Origin: Synechococcus sp. AG-686-F08
GTDB taxonomy: Bacteria > Cyanobacteriota > Cyanobacteriia > PCC-6307 > Cyanobiaceae
Length of the DNA: 37,258 nucleotides
NCBI GenBank assembly: GCA_003210315.1
Contig: QCVQ01000017.1
Span: 1 to 37,258, forward strand
Direction of reading: 5' to 3'
Numbering within the stretch: position 1 is the stretch's first letter; the number at the start of each line of letters is the position of its first letter. This document shows, piece by piece, positions 4,603-23,137 of the stretch. Below the pieces are notes generated by a model. The model was not told the DNA's origin and did not search any database. It saw only the letters and a program-made list of their open reading frames with translations. Both the position numbers and the translations under genes were made by a program.

Positions 4603-5741
4603 TTAAATAATGTCCTTAACGATAGGAATTCTGCGCAATTGATGGCTTGTGGAAAAGGACAGGACGATAGCGATCGCTGTTGATCCCACACCAATGATTC
4701 AAATGTTCTTTATCCCAAGAGAATAAAAACTAACCATAACCCCTGCAAGTATCGGTGTGTGAATTGAATAGGCGCCAAAGCTGTCTTTACCCGCGTTCAC
4801 AAGCCAATTGCTATTCAGCTTTTCATGTCCTTGATTCCAAGTTAAAATAGCAGCAATAAATCCCCAGCCAATTAGTGGCGTTAAAAATGCCATTATTGGT
4901 TTAATTGGCTGCACGTTAGCCCTGTCAAGCGAAGCCACTGCTGTTGCATAGTTTGCAGCTAATAGGCAAAGTATGAGAGCTAGTGAGAGTTGTAGCCACC
5001 GTAAGGCAAGGCGTTTGTTGATTCGTTCCAGCCATTGGTGTGATGCTGCCTTGCAGCCAAGAAAAAATAGAAATGTATAGGTCTATAGGTGCATGCCCTG
5101 ATAGCCAAGCCCATCAAAATTGGAGTTTTTCAAATCTGACCAAAAGCCAGAAAAGCATCCCATGATGAGTTCTAGGGTCCCAAGGATGATGGCGCTCATC
5201 AGCCAGGATTTTATGCCGGGTAAGGGTTTTATGTTGTCAACTATGAATTTGCTTTTTCGAATGGTAATCCACAAGCAGTATGTCGAATTTAATAAAATGA
5301 GTACTAAGAGAAACCATTGTGGACCTATCCTGTTGAGAGGCAATTCGTTAAATGCGATTCCAAACACAGTGCTGTTTGGAATAAAGATTCCTGCTATAGG
5401 GGTTATATTGTTGAGGATAAAAATTGCAATAATGAGAGGAGCTACAAGACGCAGTAGTCGATGTGTGGTGAAGTTCGCAACTCCTCTTTTCCGCACTGAA
5501 CTTGGCAGTAGATAGCCGGAAATTAGGAACAGTATGTTCATGTAAATGTATTACAGATCCAGCCAAGTCAAAAGCTTATGGCTTCGTACGCAGGTGCTGC
5601 TTTGATGATCTGTTTGAGATCAGTTGTGAATAATTTGCCTACTAATATTGTATGAGTTGCAATCACTAGAGCTAGCATAATTGCTTTGACCTGATCTAAA
5701 AAAATTATTCTTCCCGTTTTTTCTGTCGCATTTATGTGCAT
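4603..5741 (-). pseudogene. Acyltransferase-3 (OpgC/MdoC-like) pseudogene
   Basis: Reading the minus strand from ATG 5741 to TAA 4603 gives a complete 379-residue acyltransferase-3 family protein if four lesions are repaired. The N terminus has RIIFLDQVKAIMLALVIATHT (LD and H typical of the family), the middle LFLISGYLLPSSVRKRG and RLLRLVAPLII, then the GPQWFLLVLILL helix, and the expected C-terminal LRRIPIVKDII. Lesions: TGA at 5568-5570 (probably from a Trp codon), loss of one base between 5544 and 5543, TAG at 5083-5085, and TGA at 4699-4701. Total length plus one base is exactly 380 codons. The family moves acyl groups onto membrane or envelope glycans using about ten membrane helices. 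No intact copy is in the window. Confidence 0.85.
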
Positions 5742-10393: not shown

Positions 10394-10506
10394 AGCTCCA
10401 CTTGATGGAGGACATCACTTCAGACATTGATCTGGGAGATGGTGTGCGCATCGGAGGGGTGTTTCACCCTTCCCTTCTCACTCAACCATTTCAAAACCAT
10501 TTCAAA

Positions 10507-10710
10507 ATGATGTCAAACACTGAACTTTCACTGACTCAGCTCGAAGCATGTGCAGGCGGTTGGTACTTGCCAGCGGCATACATCATTGCCAAGGAAGGGT
10601 CCAAGGCGATCCAGTTTTATAAGGATGCTGCAACCAATGTTGCTGAGGGGAAATCGCTCGGAGCTGCTGTCGTAGCCGCTGGCCATAGTTCAGGAACAAT
10701 TGATGATTGA
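10507..10710 (+). CDS. Double-glycine leader peptide (bacteriocin-like precursor)
   Basis: Two adjacent ATGs (10507, 10510) open a 66-67 residue peptide with a double-glycine leader: MSNTELSLTQLEACAGG, in which the L-S-x-x-Q/E-L spacing before GG matches leaders cut by C39-peptidase ABC exporters. The predicted mature part is 49 residues, WYLPAAY to SSGTIDD, with an Ala/Gly-rich helix near the end (SLGAAVVAAG), similar in character to class II bacteriocins and other small secreted picocyanobacterial peptides. The frame is open further upstream to ATG 10405, but that part looks non-coding. No C39 exporter or immunity gene is in the window, so export would depend on one encoded elsewhere. A hairpin terminator follows. 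Confidence 0.65.
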   Translation: MMSNTELSLTQLEACAGGWYLPAAYIIAKEGSKAIQFYKDAATNVAEGKSLGAAVVAAGHSSGTIDD

Positions 10711-13845: not shown

Positions 13846-14169
13846 TTAATAAACACCGCCTGATCTGAAGTCATGTTCTTCTTCTTTTAGATTGGAAGAA
13901 CTACATGTAGATTGAGAATAGTGAATTAGATTTTTATAGCCAGCTGGTACTAATCCAGGACATAGGATTCCAACTTCAATAGCTTGGGGGCAAAAATATA
14001 CTCCTTTCCATCGATTGATAAATCTCCCTTTGATCTCATCTGAAAAATTAAAGCCACTCTCTGCGGCAAATTCTATGATCTGTTTTGGATTCATTGATGA
14101 GAGGCGAGAACGAAATTGCTCGTCACTACGTGCTCGATCAATAAATGCATGTAATTGAGATTTAGACAT
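13846..14169 (-). CDS. Nif11-like leader peptide protein
   Basis: 107 residues from ATG 14169. Residues 1-48 form a Nif11-like domain: MSKSQLHAFIDRARSDEQFR, then SSMNPKQIIEFAAESGFNFS, matching the helix-helix pattern of leaders on cyanobacterial ribosomal natural product precursors. The remaining 59 residues do not have a Gly-Gly cleavage site at the usual junction. This tail has three cysteines (60, 70 and 89), a Ser cluster (STCSSSN) and ends in SGGVY, so a modified core peptide is possible but not shown. No lanthionine synthetase, radical SAM maturase or C39 exporter is in the window. It diverges from the first AraC regulator across a 322-base intergenic region. Confidence 0.8.
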   Translation of the reverse strand: MSKSQLHAFIDRARSDEQFRSRLSSMNPKQIIEFAAESGFNFSDEIKGRFINRWKGVYFCPQAIEVGILCPGLVPAGYKNLIHYSQSTCSSSNLKEEEHDFRSGGVY

Positions 14170-14350
14170 AGCATAATCATCTCTCCTAGATTTATACCCT
14201 GCATTGACTTAAAATTGAGGCAAAAACATACTCCCTGCGAATAATATTGAGTACAATGCAGAAATAGCAAATATGAATTTTCGCTTTTATGTATCTTGCA
14301 AGATGCCTTGCCGTGACGTCCTATAAATAATTATTACATTGCGATTGCTT

Positions 14351-14415
14351 GTGTGAGTTCTATGCATTCAAGAGTTCATTGGTTCAACGTTCAAATGTCA
14401 TAGAACCTCACAATC
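14351..14415. promoter_or_regulatory. Inverted repeat enclosing three GTTCA repeats
   Basis: GTGTGAGTTCTATG (14351-14364) is nearly matched in inverse by CATAGAACCTCACAATC (14399-14415). Between the arms GTTCA occurs three times, at 14374, 14382 and 14389, so 8 and 7 bases apart. The element ends 76 bases before the first AraC gene and lies in the region shared with the divergent Nif11 gene. This is a plausible operator; AraC proteins commonly bind spaced repeats. The 322-base gap (14170-14491) shows no gene. Confidence 0.45.
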
Positions 14416-14491
14416 ACGCAGTAAAAAGAGAATAGAGATTATAATTTGCACTTGCTTGATTTTTAGAAAAATCACACCAAGGCATTAACAG

Positions 14492-15526
14492 ATGAAGGCA
14501 AGGAAGGCAAAAGAATATGTTTTCAGTAACTTGCTTGGAATGGAAACGTATTGCAAGAATCACTATAACGAATATTACTCGACTTCTAATTTTTCTTGCA
14601 ATATCACCCAATTAAGCAAAGGTGAATTGCAAACGAGTTCAATCTGTGCGCCGATCAATAATGTTCATCTCGAAATTTTCAAGTCAAATCAAACACTGCT
14701 TTATGAAGAAGAAGCTAATCAAAATTCAATTGCATTTTGCTGGATAAACAATCAAGGGAAAAAGCCAAGCAGTAACACGATCATTAGTGGTCATAAGATG
14801 AAAGATTTAAGCATAGCAGGATTTAATCGCCTAAATAAAACTGGTGGCAATACATGGGATATTGTCGGTGCAAACACTATTCTCTGCTGTATGAGTCTGA
14901 AGTGGAAGATATTGAAAGAAAAAATTGATGAGATGAATGCTTACAATGCATATGCAAGGATTGAAGAATGTATTGGCATTGATTCTAACAGTACTTCTAG
15001 TATCCAGCTAAAAAAATTATTTGAAAAGCATTTTGCCAAGGGAATAACTACAGCTGGTGGGTTTTATGATTTAGCTATTGCAACTCTAGAGGATTCTTGT
15101 GAGCTACAGAATCACATTACAGAGAGATCTGAATCTACTGAACTAATAGAGGACCTTGTTAAATTATTACATGAAGACAGAGCTGGCTTACCACCTTTGA
15201 CGATTGGAGAAATTACTAAATACTTGAACTCTGAGCAAGAATCTGTAGGCCAGGCCTGTAGATCGACTTTTAATATGAATATTCTTGATCTAATTAAAAG
15301 TATACGTCTAGAACAAGTCAAGAAGTCATATCTAAACCCACATGTTCCACGTGGTTTGAAGCAATTTACTAAGCAGCATAATGCTATGTATTATGGCTTT
15401 AGAAATTGGAATTCTTTTCAACGTCTTTACTTTAAGACTTTTCGAGAGAGTCCAGAAGACACAATTGATAAGGCAAGCAAGATGAGTGTCCTCGTCTCTG
15501 ACTTGCGTAGAGGAAGCATGTCATGA
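14492..15526 (+). CDS. fciA: AraC-family regulator, FciA-like
   Basis: 344 residues. The N-terminal two thirds resemble an AraC-binding-like sensor domain (for example GHKMKDLSIAGFNRLNKTGG). The C-terminal AraC DNA-binding region (about 235-335) has a first helix-turn-helix in LTIGEITKYLNSEQESVGQA, the linker helix LIKSIRLEQVKKSYL and a second, less canonical one around NAMYYGFRNWNSFQRLYFKT, ending RESPEDT. The stop overlaps the next gene by four bases (ATGA). Two tandem AraC genes beside a phycoerythrin lyase are the hallmark of the marine Synechococcus CA4 island, where FciA and FciB respond to light colour with opposing effects. Which copy is A or B is assigned by order only. Confidence 0.75.
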   Translation: MKARKAKEYVFSNLLGMETYCKNHYNEYYSTSNFSCNITQLSKGELQTSSICAPINNVHLEIFKSNQTLLYEEEANQNSIAFCWINNQGKKPSSNTIISGHKMKDLSIAGFNRLNKTGGNTWDIVGANTILCCMSLKWKILKEKIDEMNAYNAYARIEECIGIDSNSTSSIQLKKLFEKHFAKGITTAGGFYDLAIATLEDSCELQNHITERSESTELIEDLVKLLHEDRAGLPPLTIGEITKYLNSEQESVGQACRSTFNMNILDLIKSIRLEQVKKSYLNPHVPRGLKQFTKQHNAMYYGFRNWNSFQRLYFKTFRESPEDTIDKASKMSVLVSDLRRGSMS

Positions 15527-16479
15527 ACATCAAATTTTCCTATACAGATCCATTGCAACTGTCTGAGACTCTTCAGGAATATGGTCAAGCCATAAGAATT
15601 ACTCAACTTGAAAATGGTGAAGGTAGTTATTCGATGGCCCATACAAAATCTTCTTGTATGGCGATAGCTGAGATCAGTGCATCAAAACCACTTTTATATG
15701 AAGGATGGGGCACAAGTTGGTCAGTCGATTTTAACTGGATTACACCAATGCGTAAAGCAAATTATCCTTTTGGATATTGCGAAGGTTTTGATATGAACGA
15801 TAATAGTCTTGGAGGTTTTAATACTTTTCATTCAAATCCAGGCGACTCATGGGGAAAATATTCAGAATCATGTTCTTCAACTGCATGTATGTTGGACAAG
15901 AAAACACTACTCAATAAACTTAAAGAATGTAAGGCAAGTCAAGCTATTGCTAATTTGAGCGAATCTATCGGTTTGGTAATTGATCATGAAGCTTTTTCTC
16001 AATTGCGTAGACTGGCTCGACGGGATCTTGTTAGGGGGATTTCAAATCCATCTAAATACTACGATTTAATGACGATATGTCTTGAAGAAGGAAATCATAA
16101 GTTGTATAAAAAGAAACAGGTGAAAAATCAGAAGTTGCTTGGTGAGATTGTTAGCCTTTCTCATGATCCTGACAAAATGAGTGCACCAATGTCATTGTCA
16201 GATGTTTGTCAGCACTTAAATGTAGGACAAGCTTCTTTATATAGAACATGTCAAGATTATTTTGGTCTGGGAATCATAGAAATGATGACGCAGGTAAGAC
16301 TTGAAGAGGCCAGAAGGTCAATGATTTATTACTCTACGACTTCAAATTGTGATAATAATACTATTCGCGAAATAGCGATTCGCTTTGGATTTAAGCATCA
16401 AGGTAGATTCTCGCGGAGATACTTTACTAGTTTTGGAGAGTTGCCTAGTCACACACTTAAGCGCGCCAAGCTTTTTTGA
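15523..16479 (+). CDS. fciB: AraC-family regulator, FciB-like
   Basis: 318 residues, starting within the last codons of the upstream AraC gene (four-base overlap), so translation is probably coupled. The N-terminal domain is paralogous in layout to the upstream protein: both have a W-rich central region and a G-F-(D/N)-F/R-x-N pattern (GGFNTFHSNPGDSWG versus AGFNRLNKTGGNTWD). The C-terminal DNA-binding domain is canonical: MSLSDVCQHLNVGQASLYRT, the linker MMTQVRLEEARRSM, and REIAIRFGFKHQGRFSRRYF ending FGELPSHTLKR. Its second helix-turn-helix is better preserved than that of the upstream paralogue. The pair looks like an old tandem duplication. Confidence 0.75.
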   Translation: MNIKFSYTDPLQLSETLQEYGQAIRITQLENGEGSYSMAHTKSSCMAIAEISASKPLLYEGWGTSWSVDFNWITPMRKANYPFGYCEGFDMNDNSLGGFNTFHSNPGDSWGKYSESCSSTACMLDKKTLLNKLKECKASQAIANLSESIGLVIDHEAFSQLRRLARRDLVRGISNPSKYYDLMTICLEEGNHKLYKKKQVKNQKLLGEIVSLSHDPDKMSAPMSLSDVCQHLNVGQASLYRTCQDYFGLGIIEMMTQVRLEEARRSMIYYSTTSNCDNNTIREIAIRFGFKHQGRFSRRYFTSFGELPSHTLKRAKLF

Positions 16480-16683
16480 ACAGTTAGGCAGGCATCAGCC
16501 AAGCTTGCGTTGGAAGATAAAGTGTATTTGTTCGAATGAGGCTGAGAAATTGTTCAAATAACAAACCCAAGGAAAAGCTTAAGATCGCGTTGCCCCTATC
16601 CATTTCTTATCAAAAAGAGTAGAATTTGTGGAAACTACAAGTGTCCATTATCTGAGATGCTTGAAAATGTATTTCGCTAAAGA

Positions 16684-16851
16684 ATGAAACGAATTACCTT
16701 TGAGTTGAATGATGACCTCCATAAAAAGCTCAAGCTGCTTTGCTATACAGAATCTATGTCAATAGGTTATATCCTTAGGCAGTGTGTTTCTGAATTTTGC
16801 GATAAGCATGATGCGCATTTAATTGAATTAATTGATAATCGATCGAAGTAG
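16684..16851 (+). CDS. 55-aa ribbon-helix-helix protein
   Basis: ATG-started 55-residue frame: MKRITFELNDDLHKKLKLLC, then ESMSIGYILRQCVSEFCDKH. This has the shape of a CopG/Arc-type ribbon-helix-helix DNA-binding protein: a short N-terminal beta strand (KRITFEL), helix A (DDLHKKLKLLCYTES), the turn at MS, and helix B (GYILRQCVSEFC). Such proteins dimerise, pairing strands into a sheet that enters the DNA major groove. No toxin partner follows. It sits between the second AraC gene and the lyase, on the same strand, and is thus a candidate third regulator of the island. Confidence 0.6.
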   Translation: MKRITFELNDDLHKKLKLLCYTESMSIGYILRQCVSEFCDKHDAHLIELIDNRSK

Positions 16852-17033
16852 CTTGTTGGGTTATTGAATTAGATTTACAGCTTCGGCCTTTTGGATTAAT
16901 ATTTATTGCGTAATTGGCTCCTGCTTTTTTTTAATGGCTTAGTAAGTCTGCTTAAGCCTAGCGGGAACAACTTGAGTTGTAGTTAAAACAAGACTGCGCA
17001 TTGAGTTCTCTTGTGAAAACTGAAACTCTGCAT

Positions 17034-17063
17034 TTGTGCAATGCATATGCTGTGCTTGTGCAA
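17034..17063. promoter_or_regulatory. TTGTGCAA direct repeats, 22-bp period
   Basis: TTGTGCAA occurs at 17034-17041 and again at 17056-17063, start to start 22 bases, about two helical turns. The pair lies 91 to 120 bases upstream of the lyase ATG. Direct repeats at about 21 bases are typical of AraC-family sites, so this is a candidate site for the adjacent regulators. A TGAGTTCT at 17002-17009 also occurs in the element upstream of the first AraC gene. The remainder of 16852-17153 holds no gene. Confidence 0.45.
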
Positions 17064-17153
17064 ATAAATTTTGCCATTAGGAGACATATGAAATGTATTT
17101 TCCCCATTTATCTTTGAATTTTTGGGTAAAATTTTTTTAATCGTTTTATCCTT

Positions 17154-18383
17154 ATGGCTGAAAGATTTGATGTTCTTGTTCAAGGGATGAGTGAAAGTGA
17201 CGCTTCAGCACTTTTGTTGGAAAATACTTTAAATGTTCAAAGACCTGCAGATCGTTATTTCGCAGCCACTAGGCTTGGCCTGAGTACCACTGAAGAATCA
17301 CTTGATTTGCTCCTTCATGCTGTTGATAAGCTATCAACCGATGAATTGTATGACAGGATAACTCGTCGCAAATCTATTGAAGCACTTGGAAGGAGAAAAG
17401 ATCTGCGTGCAATACCAACTTTAGTGGGCGCTTTAAACTGTGATGACACCGAGGCTGTCATTAACGCAATTAATTCTCTCGTCCGAATTGGTTGGCAGCC
17501 ACTCCCTGATGATATAGACCTCCTTTTATCACTATTGAATGGTGAAGTTACGCAGATGCGTGCAGTCATTCAAGCTCATACCAGACTAACCATTAGGAAT
17601 TCAAAATCTAAATCTGTTATCTACGCACTTTGTGCTCATGAAAGTGTTTTGGTTTCCGGTGCAGCACGAGCATATCAGGCAAGAATATATGGAAGAGTGG
17701 ATCTTTTAGATCCCTTAGTTCCACAACTTACTGATTTGGTGGCTGGGAAAAGACGTTCAGCCGTAATTGACTTAGGTGATGCTGGTGATGACAGCAGACT
17801 CGCCGATTTGGTGCATGCACCAGTCTCTATGTCTCTCAGGGCAAAAAGTTTCTTTGATATTGTTGATGCTAATAACTCAATTTCCACTTCAAAGAATCAC
17901 ACGCTTCTAGAACAGCTTTTGACTGATAATCCTCAAACTCTTAATTTCAAAGCTGACTGGCAGTGTGATATGGATCCTGGCGAAATAGAGAGAAATCTTA
18001 GTCATAGGGATGAAGCGCGTCAATATGGGGCAGCATTAAGCCTCATGAATATTGATTCAAATACTTGTCTCGAAATTATAGAAAGTATGCAAGAAAGACT
18101 TTGGTCTGATTACGTTACCCATTATTATCTTACCTGTATTATTGGTTTGCGTAGGTTTCACCAAAAAAGTGATTTGGTGAGAGCTGCTCTCTCGGAAACC
18201 ACTCCTCAATATACAAAGTCGAGGATAGCGGCAGCTTGGGCTTGTTTGGAGCTTGAACTTTATGATCAGATGGATCTCATCTATGAGCTTTCTAATTCTG
18301 CCTTTTGGAGACCACTTCGCTGGACTTGCCAACAAGTTATGGCACGTCTGATTGAAAAACAACAAATGAATTATCAGGTTTGA
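17154..18383 (+). CDS. mpeW: E/F-clan phycobilin lyase, MpeW/MpeZ/MpeY type
   Basis: 409 residues of helical HEAT/PBS-lyase-like repeats, starting MAERFDVLVQGMSESDASAL, with the conserved YDRITRRKSIEALGRRKDLR block near residue 65-85, AVIQAHTRLTIRNSKSKS near 138-155 and SGAARAYQARIYGR near 170-183. This is the pattern of the CpeY/MpeY/MpeZ/MpeW group, which attach (and in MpeZ isomerise) a bilin on alpha-phycoerythrin. In CA4 strains MpeZ attaches phycourobilin and MpeW phycoerythrobilin at the same Cys of MpeA. The symbol mpeW is chosen only because the island lies outside any phycobilisome rod region (the CA4-B layout); mpeZ cannot be excluded from the sequence alone. Confidence 0.7.
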   Translation: MAERFDVLVQGMSESDASALLLENTLNVQRPADRYFAATRLGLSTTEESLDLLLHAVDKLSTDELYDRITRRKSIEALGRRKDLRAIPTLVGALNCDDTEAVINAINSLVRIGWQPLPDDIDLLLSLLNGEVTQMRAVIQAHTRLTIRNSKSKSVIYALCAHESVLVSGAARAYQARIYGRVDLLDPLVPQLTDLVAGKRRSAVIDLGDAGDDSRLADLVHAPVSMSLRAKSFFDIVDANNSISTSKNHTLLEQLLTDNPQTLNFKADWQCDMDPGEIERNLSHRDEARQYGAALSLMNIDSNTCLEIIESMQERLWSDYVTHYYLTCIIGLRRFHQKSDLVRAALSETTPQYTKSRIAAAWACLELELYDQMDLIYELSNSAFWRPLRWTCQQVMARLIEKQQMNYQV

Positions 18384-19460: not shown

Positions 19461-19727
19461 TTACTGAGCTGCTGCAACTGTGATGCGCTTGCGATTGCGG
19501 AGTCCGCGGCGGATTGACTCAAACTTGACGATTCCGTCGGTCAACGCAAACAAGGTGTCATCCTTGCCACGACCAACATTGACGCCAGGCATCACCGAGG
19601 TGCCACGTTGGCGGATCAAAATGGAACCAGCCGTCACGCTTTCGCCGCCGTAGGCCTTGACTCCTAGGCGCTTGGAATTGGAATCGCGTCCATTACGGGT
19701 TGAGCCTGTGCCTTTCTTGTGGGCCAT
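19461..19727 (-). CDS. rpmA: 50S ribosomal protein L27
   Basis: 88 residues, [20 protein letters not shown] at the N terminus, then [22 protein letters not shown] and [19 protein letters not shown], all diagnostic of L27. The basic N-terminal tail reaches toward the peptidyl transferase centre. There is no N-terminal extension of the Firmicute processed type. The gene follows rplU by 42 bases on the same strand, the usual bacterial pair, and is followed by a strong terminator. Confidence 0.98.
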
Positions 19728-19769
19728 GAGAAATCAAAGAGGTGGAGAGAATGAAGCTGGTTGAAGCAC

Positions 19770-20147
19770 TCAGCTGATGGCTTTACCGCCAACGGAAATG
19801 GATTCGACCATCACTCGTGTGAGCTCCTGTCTGTGACCATTCTTACGTCGTGTCTTCTTTTTGGGGCGCATTTTGTAGACAATCACTTTTTGACCACGGC
19901 GGTGGGCCATCACCTTGAGTTCCACACTGGCGCCCTCGACGTAAGGCTTGCCAACGGTGGCTACATCACCGTTCTTGACCAAAAGCACCTTGTCGAGGGT
20001 GATCTTGGCGTCCACGTCTGAATGCAGACGGTCGAGATCGTAATAACGGTTGGGTTGTACCCAAAACTGCTGCCCAGACGCTTCGACGATGGCGTATGAG
20101 CCTGTCTCTGGGGTGGTTTGTGAGCTGCTGCTGCTGGTTTCTGCCAT
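19770..20147 (-). CDS. rplU: 50S ribosomal protein L21
   Basis: 125 residues. After a Ser/Thr-rich N-terminal extension of about 15 residues ([16 protein letters not shown]) comes the L21 core: [40 protein letters not shown] and the basic [20 protein letters not shown] followed by [15 protein letters not shown]. It binds 23S rRNA. It is the first gene of the rplU-rpmA pair and diverges from kaiA. The intergenic region carries a hairpin in what would be its 5' leader. Confidence 0.97.
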
Positions 20148-20169
20148 GGGCTACTGGACGCGAACAGGC

Positions 20170-20191
20170 TCGGTGACTTAGAAGCCACCGA
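20170..20191 (-). promoter_or_regulatory. Hairpin in the rplU leader
   Basis: TCGGTG and CACCGA enclose CTT/AAG, giving a hairpin with one A-C mismatch and a tiny loop, 23 to 44 bases upstream of the rplU ATG. Ribosomal protein genes often carry autoregulatory leader structures; whether this one binds L21 is not known. Confidence 0.35.
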
Positions 20192-20282
20192 TTTGGCCTG
20201 TGCCGCAATCGAAAGACAAACAAAGATCTTCGACCTTCGAGCTCTCTTTCGTCAAGATTCAATTGCACACTTTTCGTTTTGG

Positions 20283-21179
20283 ATGACCAGGCCGGCACTC
20301 ACGATCGCGTTCTTGTTGAGGTCGCCTGAGCTCGAATCGGCTTGCTGTCAGTGGTTACCTGGTAATCGCTACACCCCCGTCGATCTTGGACTGGAGGACT
20401 CAGCGGTCGATGTTGTCTCCGCTTTGGAACGACAACGTGAGGCTGTAGATGCTGTTGTGATTGAGCAATCACTCCTTCAAGACCAGACAAGAGAAGACCT
20501 ATTGGCTCGTGGTTTGCTCTTCCCCGCCGTTGTGGTGGGCGAATTGATGGGTCGTGTCGATTACCACCCCGAAGAAGTTCACCTGCCGGGCGATCAGCTT
20601 GAGCAGCTTGGCTACAACGTTGATGCAGCGATTTCACGCTTCCTTCGCCACGGGCAGAAAGACATTCGCCCTGAGGACGGATCGTCTGAATCCGACCAAG
20701 TTGGCGGGCAGCCCGAGGGAAGTGCTTGGAAGTTGCCGAGCCGCCTACAGGAGAGGCTTGGCTATTTAGGAGTCTTCTACAAGCGAGATCCATCGCGATT
20801 CTTGGCCAATCTTCCACCCCATGAACAGCGTGAGCTGCTGCAGTCGTTGCAGCGCACCTACCGAGATTTGTTGATTGGTTATTTCCGTGACCCTGCTGCT
20901 GCCAACCAGGCTTTAGAGAGTTTTGTAAACACAGCTTTTTTTGGCGACTTACCCATTACCCAAACCGTTGAGATCCATATGAATCTGATTGACGACTTTT
21001 GGAAACAACTCAGACTTGAGGGGCATAAAGACGACTTCCTTCAGGATTACCGCCTTGCACTGCTGGATGTCATGGCTCACCTCTGCGAAATGTACCGACG
21101 GTCAGTTCCTGGAGATATTCCCTTAGTTCCTGCTGGGGCTCAACGCCGACAGCTACAGGATTCAGAGGTGACGTTATGA
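20283..21179 (+). CDS. kaiA: Circadian clock protein KaiA
   Basis: 298 residues from ATG 20283 ([20 protein letters not shown]); the open frame begins 90 bases earlier but that part is not KaiA-like. The N-terminal pseudo-receiver domain (about 1-135) is present ([29 protein letters not shown]), then a linker, then the four-helix C-terminal domain that dimerises and binds Kai[38 protein letters not shown] and [20 protein letters not shown]. KaiA stimulates KaiC autophosphorylation. Its stop overlaps the kaiB start by four bases. A full-length KaiA separates this organism from Prochlorococcus, which lacks kaiA. Confidence 0.97.
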
Positions 21180-21535
21180 GCCCTAGGAAGACTTATATCC
21201 TCAAGCTTTATGTGGCAGGGAACACCCCGAATTCGATGCGTGCACTCAAAACGCTTCGCAATATTCTTGAAACTGAATTCAAGGGTGTCTATGCCCTAAA
21301 AGTCATTGATGTCTTGAAAAATCCTCAGCTAGCTGAAGAGGACAAGATTCTGGCTACACCCACGTTGTCCAAAATTCTCCCGCCCCCTGTGCGTCGGATT
21401 ATTGGTGACCTTTCTGACCGCGAACGGGTGCTGATCGGACTTGATCTTCTTTACGACGAGCTTGTTGACAACGATCTCAACTCTTCCCTGATGGATGCGT
21501 TCGAAGTCTCGGATAGCGAAGAGGCAGATTCTTAA
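21176..21535 (+). CDS. kaiB: Circadian clock protein KaiB
   Basis: 119 residues: [20 protein letters not shown], then [20 protein letters not shown] and [20 protein letters not shown] followed by [20 protein letters not shown]. This is the thioredoxin-like KaiB core, with an acidic C-terminal tail ([10 protein letters not shown]). KaiB switches fold to bind phosphorylated KaiC and sequester KaiA. It starts inside the kaiA stop (ATGA), consistent with translational coupling. The next gene, kaiC, follows after about 66 bases. Confidence 0.98.
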
Positions 21536-21601
21536 GTCACGGGGTGATCTAGAGGGTGCTGTTGATTTTCCTCATTAACGTTGGAGAGCAAGGTTGCGGT
21601 T

Positions 21602-23137
21602 ATGCAGATTTCTAGCTCAAGTGGTTCCCCTCAGATGCAGGTTCAGAAGCTTCCTACTGGAATCGAGGGCTTTGATGATGTGTGCCATGGCGGCTTGCCC
21701 ATTGGACGCAGCACGCTGATTAGCGGAACGTCGGGAACGGGTAAAACCGTTTTTTCCTTGCATTTTCTCCACAATGGAATTGCTCATTACGATGAGCCAG
21801 GAATTTTTGTCACGTTTGAGGAGTCGCCACTCGATATTCTGCGTAATGCTGCAAGTTTTGGTTGGAACTTGCAAGAGATGGTGGAGCAAGACAAGCTCTT
21901 TATTCTTGATGCTTCTCCGGATCCCGATGGTCAGGATGTGGCGGGCAGTTTCGATCTGTCTGGCCTGATTGAAAGAATTAATTACGCCATCCGAAAGTAC
22001 AAAGCCAAAAGGGTGGCGATTGATTCGATCACGGCGGTCTTTCAGCAGTACGACGCGGTGTTTGTAGTGCGACGGGAGATCTTCCGTCTTATCGCCCGCT
22101 TGAAGGAGATCGGTGTCACCACCGTGATGACCACTGAGCGAATTGATGAATATGGTCCTATCGCGCGTTATGGCGTTGAAGAATTTGTCTCTGACAATGT
22201 TGTGATCCTGCGCAATGTGCTGGAGGGCGAGCGACGACGACGGACCGTTGAGATTCTCAAGCTGCGAGGCACCACCCACATGAAAGGTGAGTTCCCATTC
22301 ACGATGGGTGCGCATGGAATCAGCATTTTCCCTCTTGGTGCAATGAGGCTCACGCAGCGTTCATCCAATGTGCGCGTGAGTTCTGGAGTGCCGCGGCTTG
22401 ATGAGATGTGTGGTGGCGGCTATTTCAAGGATTCAATAATCCTCGCGACGGGCGCGACTGGTACAGGTAAGACGTTGTTGGTTTCGAAATTCATTGAGGA
22501 TGCTTGTAGTAATAAGGAAAGGGCAATCTTGTTCGCCTATGAAGAATCACGTGCTCAATTAATGCGTAATGGCACAAGTTGGGGCATTGATTTTGAGCAG
22601 ATGGAGCAAGATGGGCTTTTGAAGATTATTTGCGCTTACCCAGAGTCCACCGGCCTAGAAGACCACTTGCAGATTATTAAAACGGAGATCAGTCAGTTCA
22701 AGCCAACGCGAATGGCTATTGACTCATTGTCTGCGCTGGCTCGTGGCGTAAGTCGTAATGCATTTAGGCAGTTTGTGATTGCATTGACTGGGTATGCTAA
22801 GCAAGAAGAAATTGCTGGCTTTTTTACAAATACTTCCGAAGAGTTTATGGGAAGTCATTCAATCACTGACTCCCATATTTCAACTATTACTGACACTATC
22901 TTGTTGCTCCAGTATGTCGAGATACGTGGTGAAATGGCTCGAGCGATCAATGTTTTCAAAATGCGCGGGTCTTGGCATGATCGTGGTATTCGTGAATTCT
23001 TGATCACGGGCAATGGCCCACAAATTCAAGATTCATTCTCGAACTTCGAGAGAATTATTAGCGGCGTTCCTCATCGAGTCACGATGGATGAGCGCAGTGA
23101 ATTATCTCGTATCGCCCGAGGAGTGGCCCCAGAATAG
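21602..23137 (+). CDS. kaiC: Circadian clock ATPase/kinase KaiC
   Basis: 511 residues from ATG 21602, with AAGG eight bases upstream; an in-frame TTG at 21581 is less likely. Two RecA-like halves are seen: the CI Walker A GTSGTGKT near residue 42 with FVTFEES as catalytic acidic region, and the CII Walker A GATGTGKT near residue 285. The phosphorylation pair is Ser427-Thr428 in DSHISTITDT, equivalent to S431/T432 of the S. elongatus protein. The C-terminal SELSRIARGVAPE tail is the KaiA-binding segment. KaiC is the central oscillator, with ATPase, autokinase and autophosphatase activity. It converges with nblS, 47 bases apart. Confidence 0.98.
   Translation: MQISSSSGSPQMQVQKLPTGIEGFDDVCHGGLPIGRSTLISGTSGTGKTVFSLHFLHNGIAHYDEPGIFVTFEESPLDILRNAASFGWNLQEMVEQDKLFILDASPDPDGQDVAGSFDLSGLIERINYAIRKYKAKRVAIDSITAVFQQYDAVFVVRREIFRLIARLKEIGVTTVMTTERIDEYGPIARYGVEEFVSDNVVILRNVLEGERRRRTVEILKLRGTTHMKGEFPFTMGAHGISIFPLGAMRLTQRSSNVRVSSGVPRLDEMCGGGYFKDSIILATGATGTGKTLLVSKFIEDACSNKERAILFAYEESRAQLMRNGTSWGIDFEQMEQDGLLKIICAYPESTGLEDHLQIIKTEISQFKPTRMAIDSLSALARGVSRNAFRQFVIALTGYAKQEEIAGFFTNTSEEFMGSHSITDSHISTITDTILLLQYVEIRGEMARAINVFKMRGSWHDRGIREFLITGNGPQIQDSFSNFERIISGVPHRVTMDERSELSRIARGVAPE

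Follow-up and report, generated by a model that had tools for sequence, protein, structure and literature searches.

The protein Unk10 of marine Synechococcus (Cyanorak CK_00002279) is named and listed in the available text of Six 2007 (PMC2246261), and the available text of Humily 2013 (PMC3877281), in which a Crocosphaera sequence is used as root, places its gene, in reverse-strand orientation, at the CA4-A island's 5' end, gives the protein a length of 107–118 aa and a Nif11 domain, and lists RCC307 among the strains that carry such an island. The accessible part of a 2024 paper (PMC10904595) still calls Unk10 a protein of unknown function, and no function is given for it in the accessible portions of the open-licence literature found under unk10, CK_00002279, or Nif11 together with phycobilisome or phycoerythrin. 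Two other small Nif11 proteins, viz. Unk7 and Unk8, are described in the available text of PMC2246261 as encoded beside the PEII genes and are reported from PEII strains in general, the distribution of Unk10 instead being that of mpeU and the CA4 islands; mpeU itself is reported, in the text available for that study, from all 29 strains of the medium-, high- and variable-phycourobilin (PUB) types and as absent from low-PUB strains (PMC5318389). The same text describes interruption and complementation of mpeU in the laboratory strain Synechococcus RS9916. A further described class with an N-terminal Nif11 region consists of the Nif11-derived RiPP precursors (N11P, TIGR03798; prochlorosins), whose defining features, taken from the accessible text of PMC2887384, are a Nif11-like leader that ends in Gly-Gly, a hypervariable core rich in Cys, Ser and Gly, and the presence, close by or elsewhere in the genome, of a modifying enzyme or a C39 exporter.

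The stretch of DNA analysed here, a window of 37,258 nucleotides from Synechococcus sp. AG-686-F08 (contig QCVQ01000017.1), contains an ORF with an ATG start, 107 aa and a stop codon, and its sequence identifies it as Unk10, an orthologue of this known conserved small protein. We found no difference between it and CK_00002279, the length class, the N-terminal Nif11 domain and the place in the island being the same as those in the available text of PMC3877281. Residues 1–45 match Nif11 in Pfam (PF07862, E 1.4e-10, 41.7 bits against a cut-off of 23.8) and TIGR03798 is matched at 38.3 bits (curated cut-off 32.3), while residues 49–107 form a 59-residue tail with Cys60, Cys70 and Cys89 and a Ser/Thr-rich run at 85–92. 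With both profiles above their cut-offs, these results confirm the Nif11 leader and the tail with three Cys and a Ser/Thr cluster that had been noticed in a sequence-only reading of this DNA; the same reading was wrong in calling the gene an orphan, since both the family and the island to which it belongs are conserved. Copies that are 76–97% identical over the whole length are present in 17 other genomes of the genus and copies that are 49–50% identical in two further ones. The similarity is full-length and includes the tail, the length falls within the range of about 107–118 aa, and the gene has the location typical of the family, which is either within the PEII region or, as here, on the reverse strand where a CA4-A island has its 5' end, with the same order in RCC307 and other islands. 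unk10 is a known gene in a known island, and what is added here is its independence of fciAB, its linkage to mpeU across many genomes, the constraint on its tail, its arrangement in genome G032, and two homologues from filamentous organisms.

In the window, fciA, fciB, fciC and mpeZ follow in series on one strand (14492–18383; Table 1) outside the phycobilisome region, as is characteristic of a CA4-A island, and the island is flanked by truB/methyltransferase and by rpmA-rplU-kaiABC. The lyase, named by its position and after PMC3877281, is a putative bilin lyase-isomerase, of which copies with 62–89% identity are present in 23 other genomes; the copies of fciC that are 78–93% identical to that of the window occur in 15 loci, all of which also contain fciB. 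RCC307 (L067) has the same gene order, with identities to the window of 79% for unk10, 73% for fciA, 63% for fciB and 65% for mpeZ. A promoter motif common to unk10 and fciA was considered and rejected, little being conserved outside near relatives when the alignment was inspected by eye. The genes rpmA, rplU and kaiA-kaiB-kaiC that adjoin the island lie at 19461–23137, and in six near relatives rpmA (L27) likewise occupies this side of the island.

Table 1. Features of the unk10 locus and the CA4-A island in the window
Feature	Position	Strand	Basis
unk10, 107 aa, Nif11 domain and conserved Cys-containing tail	13846..14169	-	ORF; PF07862 and TIGR03798; orthologues; name from PMC3877281, PMC2246261
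unk10 Nif11 domain, residues 1–46	14032..14169	-	Pfam match 1–45; predicted helices
unk10 conserved tail, residues 47–107, Cys60/Cys70/Cys89	13849..14031	-	Alignments, pN/pS, AlphaFold
unk10-fciA divergent intergenic region	14170..14491	.	Alignable among near relatives, little common beyond; alignment of 16 regions, window included
fciA, AraC-type regulator	14492..15526	+	HTH_18 below cut-off; same place in CA4-A islands; 73% to RCC307 copy; name PMC3877281
fciB, AraC-type regulator	15523..16479	+	HTH_18 5e-16; same place in CA4-A islands
fciC, 55-aa ribbon-helix-helix protein	16684..16851	+	ORF; RHH_1 E 0.006, below cut-off
mpeZ-type putative bilin lyase-isomerase, E/F clan (HEAT repeats)	17154..18383	+	HEAT_2/HEAT_PBS; CpeY-family match below cut-off

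The presence of a Nif11 domain raises the question of whether Unk10 is a Nif11-leader RiPP precursor, whose 59-residue tail would be modified by an enzyme encoded elsewhere. The TIGR03798 match above its cut-off is common to Unk10 and these precursors, and the three Cys and the Ser/Thr cluster of the tail speak for the same interpretation. A genome-wide search of the kind that the sequence-only reading had proposed found LanM (a PF13575 match) in 11 and C39 in 26 of the 49 genomes with unk10, the C39 counts including two matches below the curated cut-off. Against this, LanM was not found in 38 of the 49 genomes, 23 genomes yielded neither LanM nor C39 although 16 of them are 98–100% complete, and the association of unk10 with LanM is not significant (Fisher's test over 72 genomes, p 0.09; for C39, p 0.21). 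No LanM or C39 was found in the window's own genome, which is 59% complete, and the earlier statement that the window holds no maturation enzyme stood, none of the 28 proteins scanned there (those of the main genes) matching a RiPP-maturation or C39 family in Pfam. Unlike N11P and the prochlorosins, Unk10 has no Gly-Gly boundary, its long tail is conserved in place of a hypervariable core, and no linked modifying or export gene was seen. The absence of a Gly-Gly site that had been claimed for the protein holds at the leader boundary; a G104-G105 pair does exist near the C-terminus, but it is mostly not kept in relatives, the majority of which have GQ, GK, GA or GH at these positions. By comparison, seven of nine other Nif11 proteins from four LanM-bearing genomes (G008, G013, G015 and G028) contain a Gly-Gly that precedes a variable tail, an eighth has Gly-Ala instead, and the ninth has no such motif. 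In the window's own genome there are eight further Nif11 ORFs, unk7 and unk8 among them, and all lack a Gly-Gly.

The tail of Unk10 is under stronger constraint than its Nif11 part. The 20 sequences from the genus align over their whole length, with one single-residue gap in two of them, and most of the invariant columns fall within F42–C89. In an alignment of 23 sequences that includes Okeania, Hormoscilla and others, Cys60 and Cys70 are invariant (23/23) and Cys89 is present in 22, being lost in Hormoscilla; His83 is variable. Pairwise pN/pS values pooled from 17 genomes amount to 0.254 for residues 1–46 and 0.147 for residues 47–107, the tail subdividing into 0.110 for residues 47–90 and 0.234 for 91–107; pS over these genomes is near saturation, and the seven nearest ones (pS 0.25–0.37) give the same order, with 0.266 for the Nif11 part and 0.111 for the tail. 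From the 24 unk10 loci, L066 and L082 were left out of A2, and L074, which has one ambiguous residue, was additionally left out of A3.

AlphaFold, run with 22 sequences, gave Unk10 a mean pLDDT of 75.4 and a pTM of 0.65, the five models ranging from 58.6 to 75.4. Helices are predicted at residues 3–15, 17–24, 28–37 and 44–51 in the Nif11 part and at 63–69 and 81–89 in the tail; the block means of pLDDT are 80, 83 and 75 over residues 61–90, 63 for residues 51–60, and 50 and 48 over residues 91–107. No solved structure matched the model in a fold comparison against the PDB, and the best relative there at the sequence level is the Nif11-domain chain 9zn4 (E 0.009), which matches the Nif11 part only. 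A strictly conserved tail with a globular predicted fold had been named beforehand as the result that would speak against a modified peptide, and this is largely what is seen: the tail is conserved over most of its length and residues 61–90 are predicted to be helical or ordered, although residues 91–107 are poorly predicted and the models vary. We have rejected the RiPP precursor on the conserved and more constrained tail, the missing leader-type Gly-Gly, and the many unk10 genomes in which LanM or C39 was not found, and with it the proposal that the tail is the substrate of a distant modifying enzyme; it is already largely refuted, and we regard it as very improbable. A metal site composed of Cys60, Cys70, His83 and Cys89 was also dropped in view of the variation at His83 and the loss of Cys89 in Hormoscilla, two observations that weaken a catalytic-thiol reading as well.

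The Unk10 profile was matched at E 1e-3 by 58 of 400 genomes of the family, of which 49 have unk10 (48 full-length; the copy in G289 is cut by a contig end and was counted) and nine, left out of this count, match in the Nif11 domain only. Our comparisons are based on a set of 72 genomes, consisting of 71 with a PEII-type alpha gene (identity at least 76%; the hits in G020 and G125 are truncated) and G014, a genome 70% complete that contains unk10 and mpeZ and has no alpha-phycoerythrin match. A PEII alpha gene is present in 48 of the 49 unk10 genomes, the remaining one being G014, and a search of the other 328 family genomes found no unk10. All of the genomes with mpeU (at least 54% identity; 43/72), mpeZ (at least 62% to the window lyase; 24/72), an mpeW-type lyase (38–40%, in the CA4-B position; 9/72), or fciA (28/72, a relic in G021 being left out) also have unk10. 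The association is significant for mpeU (Fisher's test, p 1e-13) and fciA (p 8e-7) in these 72 genomes, though the values ignore shared ancestry and gene linkage itself produces co-occurrence of unk10 with the genes linked to it. Together with the reported occurrence of mpeU, these results indicate that unk10 has nearly the same pattern as mpeU. The genomes with unk10 and without mpeU are G006, G014, G024, G032, G055 and G172; G006 and G172 have fciAB and neither mpeZ nor mpeU, and G032 and G055 have none of mpeU, fciA and mpeZ.

The 23 genomes of the set that lack unk10 comprise 11 of a separate g9/g49 group (PEII alpha 76–77%), nine of the low-PUB type, and three incomplete ones (G020, G294 and G346). 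Pigment types are here assigned from gene content and not from spectra; those called low-PUB have a PEII alpha identity of 84–86%, MpeY of 44–48%, no mpeU and no intact island gene, and six of the nine are 99–100% complete. PEII as such does not require unk10, which the g9/g49 group and the low-PUB genomes lack while carrying PEII. The unk10-bearing genomes G208 and G284 resemble the low-PUB class in their PEII alpha and MpeY identities and differ from it mainly by having mpeU. Outside the family two homologues were identified, in Okeania (51–52%) and Hormoscilla (49%); among 61 genomes of Okeania's family only Okeania itself has one, and in a phylum sample of 386 genomes the 15 with a match all belong to the window's own family. 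The six alpha-phycobiliprotein hits that were aligned from these two organisms lack the PEII Cys-75, so that unk10, of which both have a homologue, is not strictly tied to PEII. The possibility of a phage-borne gene was rejected, with no match in annotated phages (where near records may be omitted) and 39 pattern matches in IMG/VR that included 0 relatives. The fciA relic of G021 (C1:2255910-2256164), which has three stops and lies in a low-PUB-type genome without unk10, is a possible trace of a lost CA4 island. On contig C202 of G125 (L064, L071) there are two copies of unk10 about 18 kb apart, 80% and 66% identical to that of the window; no lyase was seen near the second copy, which is close to the contig end.

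The gene order around unk10 falls into a few arrangements. In 25 of the 49 genomes unk10 adjoins mpeZ and/or fciAB (23 with mpeZ, and G006 and G172 with fciAB only); in 10, for which no fciA was found, it comes directly downstream of mpeU in the same orientation; in nine it is part of the CA4-B order mpeU-fciA-fciB-(mpeW reversed)-unk10 (four mapped, five from coordinates); in three (G032, G208 and G284) it is elsewhere in the phycobilisome rod region; and in two it is unlinked, viz. G055 and G279, the latter copy lying near a phycobilisome-protein gene. In 12 mapped mpeU-linked loci the neighbour of unk10 is cpeZ, which in the eight mapped loci of the mpeU-unk10 type stands on the other side of unk10, the remaining four containing the CA4-B block. 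A third arrangement of the island genes is present in G032 (L138:14065-16505), where an fciC-like gene, unk10 and, 46 bases on, a CpcE-CpcF-like fusion (both matches below curated cut-offs) follow on one strand with no fciA found. In the simplest reading of these orders, unk10 was originally the neighbour of mpeU and an insertion of the CA4-B genes separated the two, although the CA4-B block may instead have been lost from between them; gene order thus suggests that unk10 stood beside mpeU and that colour-acclimation genes came to adjoin it. The Hormoscilla homologue is near pentapeptide, CpeS and CpeZ-like genes, the CpeZ-like protein having its best NCBIfam score, below cut-off, with NblB; the Okeania and Hormoscilla contigs both end close to the homologue.

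These arrangements bear on the suggestion in the sequence-only reading that this Nif11 protein has a regulatory role in the island. Unk10 could be a colour-response regulator that binds a bilin or one of FciA, FciB and FciC and adjusts transcription of mpeZ and from the divergent fciA promoter, as its head-to-head position with fciA in the 16 CA4-A-type loci compared, its presence in 28 of 28 fciA genomes, and the retention of fciAB and unk10 without mpeZ in G006 and G172 might indicate. In five loci that lack fciAB (L049, L051, L052, L053 and L056) fciC persists between unk10 and mpeZ, which, like the fciC-like gene upstream of unk10 in G032, points the same way. However, no fciA was found in 21 of the 49 unk10 genomes, in 10 of which unk10 follows mpeU, and Unk10 matched no DNA-binding family among the Pfam and NCBIfam profiles. 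Seven mpeZ genomes without fciA found, of which G008, G028 and G279 are 98–99% complete, keep unk10, and among four of the seven (G017 being identical to G014, and G015 and G279 more distant) its pN/pS is 0.068, so that unk10 is under purifying selection where fciAB have been lost. In the mpeZ-less G006 and G172, examined for relaxed selection on unk10, the private changes in the gene number 6 and 8 at the amino-acid level and 6 and 6 synonymous, both kinds being more numerous there. A role in the island in the broad sense is thus upheld, but two observations weaken the regulatory version: purifying selection maintains unk10 in genomes in which no fciA was found, and the gene follows mpeU in such genomes. 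A role in phycoerythrin chromophorylation or assembly fits better, and we consider a regulator unlikely.

It is similarly improbable that Unk10 is a structural or assembly component of the phycobilisome rod, e.g., a small linker-like protein or a chaperone for PUB-carrying PEII hexamers, in place of a lyase partner. Such a component would agree with the finding that 22 of 49 genomes have unk10 within the region of the rod genes, with its phyletic tie to mpeU, and with the encoding of Unk7 and Unk8 in the PEII region, but in CA4-A islands unk10 moves with mpeZ, away from the rod structural genes, and no linker-domain match was found for the protein in Pfam or NCBIfam.

We favor over the regulator, the rod component and the RiPP precursor a function of Unk10 in PUB chromophorylation or phycoerythrin assembly, mainly of PEII, as an accessory partner of the E/F-clan lyase-isomerases (MpeU, MpeZ and relatives), and place its probability at about one half. 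This accessory role is favored because unk10 is usually accompanied by bilin lyases, whether or not the regulators are present, and because its presence marks the genomes with an extra PUB lyase; in the window the gene is likewise carried on the CA4-A island near mpeZ. The Nif11 helical module would be a protein-recognition unit, directed at either the lyase or the nascent phycoerythrin subunit. The working part would be the tail, which is conserved, partly helical and furnished with two or three fixed Cys, and which may hold a bilin or a subunit thiol or make the contact. Identity, conservation, linkage, co-occurrence and selection are observed here; which partner is involved, which biochemical step is performed and what the Cys do is what we infer. 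The gene is common to CA4-A islands, CA4-B islands and PEII regions of the high-PUB type, and the gene order described above makes a formerly unexplained gene of the island open to testing as a component of phycourobilin attachment.

CpeZ is a non-catalytic helper of an E/F lyase. Among the phycoerythrin lyase accessory proteins of this type, Unk10 would be comparable at most in being such a helper, as it is no HEAT-repeat protein and no sequence similarity to CpeZ was seen. Unk7 and Unk8 resemble Unk10 in being small Nif11 proteins, but their tails differ and are without its Cys pattern. Full-length paralogy was rejected, profile comparison aligning only the Nif11 part for Unk7 and Unk8 and nothing meaningful for Unk9. 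A broader and distinctly more speculative proposal is that the Nif11 module, known chiefly from RiPP leaders to which modifying enzymes bind by recognition, was recruited as a recognition module to chromophore attachment, such that Unk10, and perhaps Unk7 and Unk8, would be uncleaved adaptors presenting phycoerythrin subunits to lyase-isomerases, the gain of unk10 being one step toward extra blue-absorbing phycourobilin.

Three additional observations were made in the course of this work. In the window's own genome (L039:7004-7884), unk9-unk8-unk7 are divergent from mpeY, and Unk7 and Unk8 are further PEII-tied Nif11 proteins. A TTG-initiated ORF of the window at 10402–10710 (+) contains an inner double-glycine leader pattern and has weak, below-cut-off matches to CCRG-2 and CTB-bacteriocin, making it, by its sequence, a better bacteriocin or RiPP candidate than unk10. 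Lastly, an acyltransferase-3 family gene at 4699–5541 (-) looks broken, consisting of two ORF pieces with a stop between them.
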